Source: an uncultured Oscillospiraceae bacterium (GTDB taxonomy: Bacteria; Bacillota; Clostridia; Oscillospirales; Oscillospiraceae). Taken from it: DNA of 12,752 bases. Each line of letters begins with the position of its first letter. Positions within the stretch are counted from its first letter, which is position 1. The translations under genes were made by a program, and so were the position numbers. Location of the stretch: the NCBI GenBank assembly GCA_934635545.1, contig CAKTZN010000035.1:1-12752 (forward strand). Direction: 5' to 3'. The notes beneath the pieces are model-generated. The model was not told the origin of the DNA and searched no databases. It saw only the letters and a program-made list of their open reading frames with translations. This document shows, in pieces, positions 4,140 to 6,345 of the stretch.

Positions 4140-4224
4140 TCAATCGCTATCCAGCTTGAGCACAGCCATGAAGGCTTCCGTGGGCACCTGCACCGTGCCG
4201 AGATTCCGCATCTTTTTCTTGCCC
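4140..4224 (-). pseudogene. lepA: 3' remnant of a second lepA (last 27 codons and stop)
   Basis: On the minus strand this reads [20 protein letters not shown] and on to LDSD-stop. The 27 residues are identical to the C-terminus of the intact lepA beginning upstream, and the stop codon is also the same. At DNA level there are 6 differences in about 85 nt, all synonymous (for example GCC/GCG, TTC/TTT, CGG/CGC). Homology to lepA stops abruptly at 4224, where hairpin-rich sequence begins. The fragment has no start and no independent ribosome site. It lies directly before the terminator and so appears to be the true 3' end of an older lepA whose body has been lost. Confidence 0.85.
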
Positions 4225-4318
4225 GTTGGGAAAGCTGCGCTTTCCAACGGCGCTTCGCGCCCCAATTTGAATCACGCCGCACAGCGGCGGCTCACTGGCG
4301 CTCGCAAGAGGGCAAGAA
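4216..4318. repeat. Hairpin-mosaic spacer at the lepA 3' junction
   Basis: A non-coding stretch bounded by an inverted repeat: TTCTTGCCC (4216-4224, inside the outer lepA remnant) and GGGCAAGAA (4310-4318, abutting the inner lepA stop). Inside it are consecutive small hairpins: GTTGGGAAAGC/GCTTTCCAAC with one bulge, GGCGC-TTC-GCGCC and GCCGC-ACA-GCGGC. It shares CCCCAATTTG (4260-4269) in inverted orientation with the 5' junction spacer. It has no T-run or reading frame of note. Confidence 0.6.
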
Positions 4319-4405
4319 TCAATCGCTATCCAGCTTGAGCACAGCCATAAACGCTTCCGTGGGCACCTGCACGGTACCCAGATTGCGCATCTTTTTCTTG
4401 CCCTC
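4308..4405. repeat. 11-bp fold-back inverted repeat at the inner lepA 3' end
   Basis: GAGGGCAAGAA (4308-4318), immediately beyond the inner lepA stop, is the exact reverse complement of TTCTTGCCCTC (4395-4405) inside the last codons of the same gene. The two arms are 76 nt apart and enclose the end of the gene. The match to the inner allele is 11 nt, but only 9 nt to the outer remnant. Confidence 0.65.
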
Positions 4406-6127
4406 TTTCTGCTTCTCCAGCAGCTTCTTCTTGCGGGTGATGTCGCCGCCGTAGCACTTGGCCAGCACGTCCTTGCGCATGGCCTTCACCGTCTCGCGGG
4501 CGATGATGCGGCCGCCGATGGCCGCCTGAATGGGCACCTCGAAGAGCTGGCGGGGGATATTCTCCTTCAGCTTCTCGCACAGGCGGCGGGCACGGCCATA
4601 TGCCTTATCCCGGTGGGCGATAAAGCTCAGGGCGTCCACGCCGTCGCCGTTCAGCAGCAGATCCACCTTCACCAGGTCGCTGGTGCGATAGCCGGACAGC
4701 TCATAGTCCAGGCTGGCATAGCCCTTGGTGTTGGCCTTAAGGGTATCAAAGAAGTCGTAGATGATCTCATTGAGCGGCATCTGGTAATGCAGCTCCACCA
4801 GATGGGTGTCCAGATACTGCATATCCTTGAACTCGCCCCGGCGGTCCTGGCACATGGGCATGATGTTGCCCACGAAGTCCTGGGGCGTGATGATGGACAC
4901 CTTCACATACGGCTCCTCGGCGTGCTCGATGCTGCCGGGGTCGGGGTAGTTATGGGGATTGTCCACCTTCACCATGGTACCGTCGGACTTATAGACGTGG
5001 TAAATAACGCTGGGCAGAGTGGTGACCAGATCCAGGTTGAACTCACGCTCCAGACGCTCCTGGATGATCTCCATGTGGAGCATGCCCAGAAAGCCGCAGC
5101 GGAAGCCGAAGCCCAGCGCCACGGAGGATTCCGGCTCAAAGGTCAGGCTGGCGTCGTTGAGCTGGAGCTTCTCCAGCGCGTCCCGCAGGTCGGGATACTT
5201 GCTGCCGTCCTCGGTATAGATGCCGCAGTAGACCATGGACTGGGCGGGCCGGTAGCCGGGCAGCGGCTCGGCGGCGGGTGCGGCGGCGTCGGTGATGGTA
5301 TCGCCCACCCGGGTGTCCTTCACGTTCTTGATGCTGGCGGTGAAGTAGCCCACCTCACCGGCCTGCAGGCAGTCGGTAGGCTCGTTGCCCAGGGGCTTCA
5401 GATAGCCGCACTCCAGAATGGTGTACTCCGCGCCGCTGGCCATCATGCGGACGGTCTGACCCTTGCGGATGGTACCCTCCATGATGCGGAACAGCACCAC
5501 CACGCCCACATAGGGGTCATACTGGCTGTCGAACACCAGGGCCCGCAGGGGCGCCTTGGGGTCGCCCTTGGGGGCGGGGACGTTGTTCACCACGTCCTCC
5601 AGCACGGCATCGATGTTGATACCCAGCTTGGCGGAGATCTCCGGCGCGTCCAACGCAGGCAGGCCGATGATGTCCTCCACCTCCTGCTTGGCCTTCAGGG
5701 GATCGGCGGCGGGCAGGTCGATCTTGTTGAACACGGGCAGAATTTCCAGATCGTGATCCATGGCCAGATAGGTGTTGGCCAGGGTCTGAGCCTCCACGCC
5801 CTGGGTGGCGTCCACCACCAGCAGCGCGCCCTCGCAGGCGGCCAGAGAGCGGCTGACCTCGTAGTTGAAGTCCACATGGCCCGGCGTGTCGATGAGGTTC
5901 AAGGCATAGACCTCGCCGTCCTGCGCCTTATAGAAGATCTGTACAGCCCGGGACTTGATGGTGATGCCCCGCTCCCGCTCCAGATCCATGTTGTCCAGCA
6001 GTTGGTTCTCCATCTCCCGCTCCGGCACGGCGTTGCACTTTTCCAGCAGGCGATCCGCCAGCGTGGATTTACCGTGATCAATGTGGGCAATGATGGAAAA
6101 ATTACGAATATGAGATTGGTCAAACAT
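4319..6127 (-). CDS. lepA: Elongation factor 4 (LepA), ribosome-associated GTPase
   Basis: A 602-residue translational GTPase of normal length. In the family LepA/EF4 binds the ribosome and affects initiation, elongation or back-translocation. The G-domain motifs are intact: G1 AHIDHGKS (14-21), G2 Thr56 in RGITIKS, G3 DTPGHVD (80-86) and G4 NKID (134-137). Domain II, the EF-G-like domains and the LepA-specific C-terminal domain with the basic [15 protein letters not shown] stretch follow, ending VLKLDSD. The frame extends upstream to 6220, but the ATG at 6127 has AGGAGG 8 nt away and begins the conserved [20 protein letters not shown]. The gene sits between the 5' and 3' remnants of another lepA, and both of its flanks are hairpin-rich. 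No convincing promoter is seen close upstream, so expression may read through from the outer remnant. Confidence 0.95.
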
Positions 6128-6158
6128 ATAAAGTACCTCCTTCGGGGTAAATCCACGC
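6061..6158. repeat. 13-bp fold-back inverted repeat enclosing the lepA start
   Basis: GGTAAATCCACGC (6146-6158), just upstream of the inner lepA ribosome site, is the exact reverse complement of GCGTGGATTTACC (6061-6073), which is codons 19-23 of the gene on the other strand. The arms are 72 nt apart and enclose the Shine-Dalgarno sequence and start codon. In mRNA, pairing would put the initiation region in a closed loop. The outer lepA remnant matches the distal arm less well (8 of 9). Confidence 0.65.
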
Positions 6159-6282
6159 GATTCGCGCGGAGCGCGTCCAAGCGTTTTGCGAAGCAAAACC
6201 TTGCCGCAGGCGGAATTCATTTCCGCCGAGGATGTTCAATAAAATAGGGGCCCCCGATTTGCCGTCAGGCAAATTGGGGAAC
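6146..6282. repeat. Hairpin-mosaic spacer at the lepA 5' junction
   Basis: A non-coding string of short hairpins between inner lepA and the outer 5' remnant: CGCG-ATT-CGCG and CGCGC-GGA-GCGCG (6156-6175), GTTTTGC-GAA-GCAAAAC (6183-6199), GGCGGAA-TTCAT-TTCCGCC (6209-6227), GGGGCCCC (6247-6254) and ATTTGCC-GTCA-GGCAAAT (6257-6274) with outer CCCC/GGGG arms. It shares CAAATTGGGG with the 3' junction spacer. Frames crossing it are out of phase with lepA and look non-coding. Confidence 0.6.
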
Positions 6283-6345
6283 GGATTTGCCATGGTCAAT
6301 GTGAGCGATGATGGAAAAATTACGAATATGGGATTGATCAAACAT
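6265..6345 (-). pseudogene. lepA: 5' remnant of a second lepA (first 21 codons)
   Basis: The ATG at 6345, with AAGGAGG 9 nt upstream, opens [20 protein letters not shown] plus S. These 21 residues are identical to the start of the intact lepA. After Ser21 (6283) the frame reads VPQFA and stops at 6265-6267. The DNA differs from the intact copy at 7 of 63 positions, all synonymous third bases. Homology extends upstream through the ribosome site (CCCCAAGGAGGTTACTTTAT versus a near-identical inner version) and then ends. The fragment could still be translated as a 26-residue leader because its initiation signals are intact, but no role is evident. Confidence 0.85.

Follow-up and report, generated by a model that had tools for sequence, protein, structure and literature searches.

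Several described systems come close to what is reported here. Homing elements (group I introns, inteins and homing endonuclease genes) form site-specific lineages at conserved sites in conserved genes, leave the host gene whole and show a co-conversion-like allele pattern beside the site, and integrative elements that regenerate the end of their target (att-site duplication at tRNA and gene ends) leave a duplicated gene end with a remnant on the far side. In the scaffold-plus-guide RNAs of IS200/IS605 (TnpB) systems, a structured part is succeeded by a 3' stretch matching the locus of insertion. Miniature inverted-repeat transposable elements (MITEs), repetitive extragenic palindromes (REPs) and other small palindromic bacterial repeats are small, non-coding, hairpin-rich and dispersed, with many copies per genome. 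These traits recur in a small folded element, here called E, that lies in both ends of lepA, the gene of translation elongation factor 4, on a contig of an uncultured Oscillospiraceae bacterium (CAKTZN010000035.1, positions 1 to 12,752; this whole 12,752-nt stretch is the window). The pieces of lepA found outside the intact gene are probably spare gene ends beside this element and not the remains of a replaced gene. That E is a site-specific, homing-like element with a guide-like tail, lepA being one gene with two insertions of it, is the reading that we favour, although we regard it as an evenly balanced proposition.

On the minus strand of the window, a first-pass annotation had read a 5' piece of lepA, a spacer, an intact lepA with its own ribosome-binding site (RBS), a second spacer, a 3' piece and a terminator-like hairpin, and this order holds (Table 1). 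The direct repeats at the two ends of lepA measure 83 nt at 86% identity and 86 nt at 93%, so the remnants are not a matter of chance. By tblastn, they show 100% protein identity over residues 1–21 and 576–602; their DNA is identical to the intact lepA at 56 of 63 (5') and 75 of 81 (3') positions, and the 13 differences, given as all synonymous in the first-pass annotation, were recovered as such (7 + 6, with identical translations). The frame of the outer 5' piece runs for five codons into E and then meets a stop. The spacers on the two sides match each other in reverse complement. A covariance model (R1) identified a single intact E in the window, at 6172–6281 of the minus strand with 102.1 bits (runner-up in the window, 12.7), and gave no significant match at the 3' spacer. 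The latter keeps the left-end hairpin and the right-end hairpins with the tail, the core of other copies being gone, and agrees with the right end of the intact E in locus L005 at 88.6% over 35 nt. Its tail was read from the sequence, this insertion standing outside the 94 scored below for their tails. The target of the 5' tail, GGTAAATCCACGC, comprises codons 19–23 of the intact lepA.

Table 1. Features of the lepA locus, in window coordinates.
Feature	Position	Strand	Remarks
Terminator-like hairpin with T-run	~4106–4133	-	Beyond the outer 3' copy, outside the duplication; by eye
Outer copy of lepA 3' end	4139..4224	-	Codons 576–602 + TGA
Element E, 3' insertion	4225..4317	+	93 nt, internally deleted; antisense to lepA
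Tail of 3' E	4306..4317	+	AAGAGGGCAAGA, reverse complement of the target across the codon 575/576 junction
Inner copy of duplicated 3' end	4318..4403	-	Codons 576–602 + stop
Intact lepA (translation elongation factor 4)	4319..6127	-	602 aa + stop; own RBS
Inner copy of duplicated 5' end	6065..6146	-	RBS to codon 21, continuous with intact lepA
Tail of 5' E	6146..6158	-	GCGTGGATTTACC, reverse complement of GGTAAATCCACGC, across the insertion point
Element E, 5' insertion	6147..6282	-	136 nt, hairpins + tail; same sense as lepA
Outer copy of lepA 5' end	6283..6365	-	RBS AAGGAGG, ATG at 6345, codons 1–21

In the arrangement that we propose, lepA is one gene that carries E twice, after codon 21 and at codon 575/576. 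On either side of each E stands a copy of the gene end, duplicated directly from about the gene boundary to the insertion point; the inner one leaves lepA complete, and the outer one is a leftover. Read in the direction of E, the order is an outer copy ending in X, the hairpins of E, the tail, a short unmatched stretch, an inner copy running from A to X, and the body of the gene.

The same remnants were found in relatives. Among 80 related lepA loci and that of Vescimonas fastidiosa (the closest named relative met, 86.5% over lepA DNA), L004 carries both remnants at the same codons as the window, L005 the 3' one only, and L009 the 5' one together with a shorter 3' scrap. Since other genomes carry just one (3' in L005, 5' in L329), the two ends are separate events, which is at odds with the first-pass proposal that a resident lepA lost its body on the arrival of a second one. 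Other assemblies have remnants at these codons as well, among them that of L339, where the contig measures 3.2 Mb, and that of L258, where it measures at least 1.9 Mb, so the arrangement is probably not an artefact of one assembly. A strain-mixed or chimeric assembly is scarcely credible given these occurrences, and the same anatomy is seen at truB in the V. fastidiosa MM35 record.

Of 177 lepA loci, 6 duplicated others and were set aside; the 171 used may still include some genomes twice. All 29 E matches near lepA, spread over 22 of the 171 loci, point into the gene (12 at the 5' end in the same sense, 17 at the 3' end in antisense). By tblastn ends, the outer 5' pieces end at codon 21 in 7 of 10 cases (the rest at 22, 25 and 35) and the outer 3' pieces begin at codon 576 in 14 of 17 (the rest at 561, 573 and 577). 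Occupancy is scattered, with E at the 5' site in 11 of 107 loci and at the 3' site in 18 of 106, and a quick tree of 109 lepA bodies, given without a shuffled control, requires 10 changes at the 5' site and 17 at the 3' site. Scattered occupancy of one exact site, a feature of homing elements, is thus present at lepA; repeated loss would look alike. In L258 (627–1474, genome G146), four [lepA 3' end + E] units stand in tandem, from which it follows that turnover of units happens; the scores of these four E are equal two by two, as would result from the doubling of a dimer.

E itself is a dispersed structured element of ~140–170 nt without an open reading frame (ORF) of its own, folding into hairpins. 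The pairing is compensatory: across 24 sequences, 14 of 26 consensus base pairs are changed on both sides. Five of the six relatives tested have between 2 and 24 copies of E, and the sixth, L001/G001, the nearest by protein, has none. It was detected in all 20 genomes of the genus of G003, in at least 50 of 200 Oscillospiraceae genomes (the best 4 candidates per genome being scored), and, with the covariance model under stricter filters and the best 13 candidates scored, in at least 24 of 295 genomes of the order. A second clade (G442, G460 and G419; L356–L375) is also rich in E copies, and in its loci L359 and L370 the element lies directly behind a tRNA-like sequence and the terminator-like hairpin of the latter. 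Two plasmid records carry E, that of P. faecalis without a long repeat (score 11). One exact pattern had no match over viral contigs, no wider phage search being made. Over five sources, Rfam returned no match above the gathering score and, at low threshold, chance-level matches only: DdR11 snoRNA (expectation value 5) and the L4-Archaeoglobi leader (expectation value 0.033, 22.9 bits versus a gathering score of 34.5). In those parts of the open-access literature that we could consult, no description of an element like E was found.

A profile built from 26 E copies gave 155 matches, corresponding to 137 distinct copies, 131 with enough flanking sequence and 6 without. A flanking direct repeat was found in 114 of the 131 (score above 12.5, the 95% level of a mismatched-pair null; the 99% level is 30.5, a raised upper tail that we believe to come from different loci sharing orthologous sites). 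In most copies the distance between the end of the upstream repeat and the core of E is nearly fixed. The repeats are mostly a gene end of 30–120 bp, with the gene staying whole, and a single fixed duplication length was rejected.

Typing by codon usage, which assumes that the gene lies on the side of the inner copy (at lepA no assumption is needed), placed 79 of 94 insertions at gene 3' ends and 14 at 5' ends, leaving 1 unassigned. NCBIfam agreed with it in orientation for the 17 of 20 proteins that gave a match, the boundary in L158 being off. The insertion point lies at a median depth of 58.5 nt inside the gene (n = 92). For the 79 insertions at 3' ends, the repeat starts -2 to +9 nt from the stop codon in 43 and -20 to -3 nt in 13, and the remainder fall at 10 to 32 nt (2), at 33 nt or more (20) and below -20 nt (1); some gene-end repeats start at the terminator, as seen in sequences that were left uncounted. 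Because starts at the stop codon (43 of 79) or the terminator are so frequent, we considered template switching onto the mRNA of the gene itself; the idea was dropped, as the 5' insertions do not fit.

E sits in the ends of lepA, infB, groEL, gdhA, prfC, truB and tRNA-Arg, the last with one insertion inside the tRNA gene. By NCBIfam, which matched 17 of the 20 proteins tried (3 were unmatched, and some matches were under the family cut-off, the sequence being cut), the targets include IF-2, GroEL, glutamate dehydrogenase, TruB, RF3, AlaRS, AspRS, EF-Ts, UvrA, MutL, glucose-6-phosphate isomerase, phosphotransacetylase and argininosuccinate lyase. On V. fastidiosa pMM35_01 (L255, 2860–3170), E stands at the 5' end of truB; the inner copy there has an RBS, AAGGAG, behind the tail, and the outer ATG follows directly on the stop of the upstream gene. 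The spacers at lepA are thus copies of a dispersed element in an arrangement repeated at many genes, and the first-pass view of an insertion of one lepA inside another is not supported. That a second lepA invaded the resident one and replaced its body would account for 13 of 13 differences being synonymous and for outer pieces nearer to V. fastidiosa; the one-sided cases, the tandem units at lepA and the recurrence of this spacer element, with repeats of gene ends, at other genes make it very improbable.

The stretch between the hairpins of E and the inner copy holds a reverse complement of the target across the insertion point. This tail matched its own target above the 95% level of a shuffled-partner null (9) in 60 of the 94 insertions and above the 99% level (11) in 44, and 58 of the 60 significant matches span the junction; the other 37 of the 131 copies were left out of the test because of a weak repeat, a tandem arrangement or an off-register position. 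Compared with the same site elsewhere, the tail fits the target of its own host better in 33 cases, worse in 7 and equally in 24 (n = 64, unpreselected, p = 7e-5). Another count (66 own, 4 other, 3 neither) is biased, its positions being taken from own-target matches, and is not used for this claim. The tail also fits the inner copy better in 13 insertions, the outer copy in 2 and both equally in 47 (p = 0.007). A tail that follows the target of its host, together with the conserved structure of E, would also be expected of a regulatory RNA element under selection whose tail base-pairs, within one transcript, with the start or the end of its gene, and the geometry allows such pairing, at the start region in the 5' type and at the end region in the 3' type. 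Such an element would hardly be so scattered in occupancy (11 of 107 and 18 of 106 lepA loci), nor occur in both orientations relative to the gene and at unrelated genes, nor exist in internally deleted copies such as the 3' E of the window, and we consider this explanation improbable.

E copies cluster by site and not by genome, as homing elements do. Their identity is 0.82 at the same site in different genomes (74 pairs), versus 0.695 at different sites in the same genome (309 pairs) and 0.691 where neither is shared (3988 pairs), and free spread of E from site to site within one genome therefore does not appear likely. The two copies of the gene end are, for their part, allelic in character. 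In the 90 of 94 insertions taken into the codon test, the comparison of outer with inner copies gave 290 synonymous and 78 non-synonymous changes, a ratio (N/S) of 0.27, compared with 0.37 between genomes (46 pairs of inner copies) and 3.44 for random mutation. A dead outer copy that had drifted since the duplication would not yield such a ratio, and the first-pass reading of two once-functional alleles is supported; the pieces do not look like a decaying tandem duplicate.

Which allele is the resident one is less uniform. At the 13 differing sites of the window, the outer pieces match V. fastidiosa lepA (L260) at 11 and the inner copies at 2, and agree with L257, the nearest by gene body, at 10 versus 3; for the window it is accordingly plausible, as first proposed, that the outer pieces are those of the resident gene. 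In the alignment with the lepA genes of relatives that had been suggested as a check, the more distant ones are mixed, being less clear or opposite (L262 matches 3 outer versus 8 inner).

If E is mobile and homing-like with the tail acting as a guide, the cognate site of another strain would be opened and repaired from the E-bearing allele; the recipient would keep its own gene end outside, while E, the tail and the gene end of the donor would come to lie inside. For this an enzyme acting in trans would be needed. E is too small to encode an endonuclease. In the 20 E-bearing genomes of the genus, a reverse transcriptase (RVT_1) was found in just 7, and none in the E-rich G003 and G020, whose completeness is not known; reverse transcriptase is thus no constant companion of E, as it would be of a retroelement. 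A TnpB-type domain over the cut-off was found in just 6 of the 20, a Y1 transposase in 10 and an IS110-type one in 9. Each of the four is absent from at least half of these genomes, and all were rejected as obligate partners. More tentatively, and with rather more doubt than confidence, we suggest that E is a homing element that is protein-free and carries its own guide. The 3' tail of its structured scaffold would recognise a conserved target of its own, and a host or trans-acting enzyme would copy E into empty alleles, the gene being spared by its duplicated end. The local allele would renew the tail or hold it to its own sequence, and one lineage would form per conserved gene end.

A number of results weigh against the homing-like reading. 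Movement of E itself was not seen, and none of the four enzyme families yielded a partner in the 20 E-bearing genomes. No clear flanking repeat accompanies 17 of the 131 copies, 34 of the 94 insertions have no tail match above the 95% null, and in the second clade (G419, G442 and G460) a long flanking repeat of non-E sequence was found in just 5 of 28 copies from 20 regions. That the outer copy is always the resident was rejected as a general rule, since in 23 lepA comparisons the nearest relative split 57 outer to 62 inner. Nor is it supported that the unmatched stretch travels with E: before the inner copy it is conserved at 0.35, no more than the outer flank at 0.37, so that it seemingly does not.

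Further points of this kind favour two other explanations. The main rival is vertical inheritance with turnover of units, in which old insertions would have entered each site once, unequal exchange or slippage would keep the copies alike, and scattered occupancy would reflect repeated precise loss. The divergence of E is weakly correlated with that of lepA (Mantel r 0.38, p 0.01 at the 3' site; r 0.29, p 0.08 at the 5' site) and with gene divergence over 38 site pairs (r 0.57), as expected under vertical descent; in 20 of 22 lepA cases the sequence closest to the outer copy is the inner copy of its own genome; and arrays exist, namely the four units at the lepA 3' end in L258 and clustered E in L096, L133, L160 and L161. 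Under this explanation, however, a dead outer copy should gain mostly non-synonymous changes (neutral N/S of 3.44, 0.27 observed), and some same-site E pairs are closer than their genes (L323/L308, E 0.92 and gene 0.82; L124/L162, 0.99 versus 0.90), so that we hold it to be unlikely.

In ordinary allele exchange, E would be immobile and the crossover would be forced inside the short gene-end copy, the intergenic DNA not matching, which would leave outer and inner copies from two alleles. The allelic pattern of the differences and the outer copies nearer to V. fastidiosa in the window agree with this. So does the thinning of differences toward E, from 0.13–0.145 per site at 61–72 nt from the junction to 0.037 at 1–6 nt, which is also expected from ordinary recombination inside the repeat and counts against homing to that extent. 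Yet the differences come within 8 nt of the junction in 20 of the 47 insertions that have 3 or more of them, a tail that follows the target of its own host is not accounted for, and the origin of E with its duplication and matching tail at dozens of genes is left unexplained; allele exchange is accordingly quite unlikely as the whole explanation.

Two further repeats were noted in the window. A perfect 20-nt inverted repeat with a 2-nt spacer lies at 3781–3822 (CGTATAATAATATGGTGCGT / ACGCACCATATTATTATACG), and upstream of the outer lepA copy, at ~6380–6480 of the minus strand, a GC-rich stretch resembles another dispersed repeat (GGGCGGACAGAGTCGTCCGCCCC).

E-type elements sit in the ends of GroEL, IF-2, EF4, EF-Ts, RF3, tRNA synthetases and other core genes of gut bacteria, with a whole copy of the gene kept. 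Should the tail be a guide, E would spread through conserved sites in a gene-sparing, nucleic-acid-guided way for which a cargo gene is unnecessary. In annotation, short duplicate gene ends beside E spacers should not be taken for pseudogenes of replaced genes, and core-gene alignments may take the wrong copy of a gene end.

Among the known classes considered, there is none whose tested defining features are all found in E. Unlike homing elements, E is ~150 nt long and has no ORF of its own, and it shows no sign of splicing, the gene end being present twice with the inner copy whole. Unlike MITEs and REPs, it has gene-end duplications, a target-complementary tail and lineages by site; in place of the terminal inverted repeats that all copies of a MITE would carry, the ends of the E copies compared by eye differ from one to another, and the inverted match across E is target-derived, and in place of a short target duplication there are repeats mostly of 30–120 bp of gene ends. 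Unlike integrative elements, it is too small for an integrase or cargo, and one family serves dozens of unrelated targets with unrelated repeats. Unlike TnpB guide RNAs, its matched stretch is inverted and spans the insertion point, and few of its genomes encode a TnpB-type protein, as given above.

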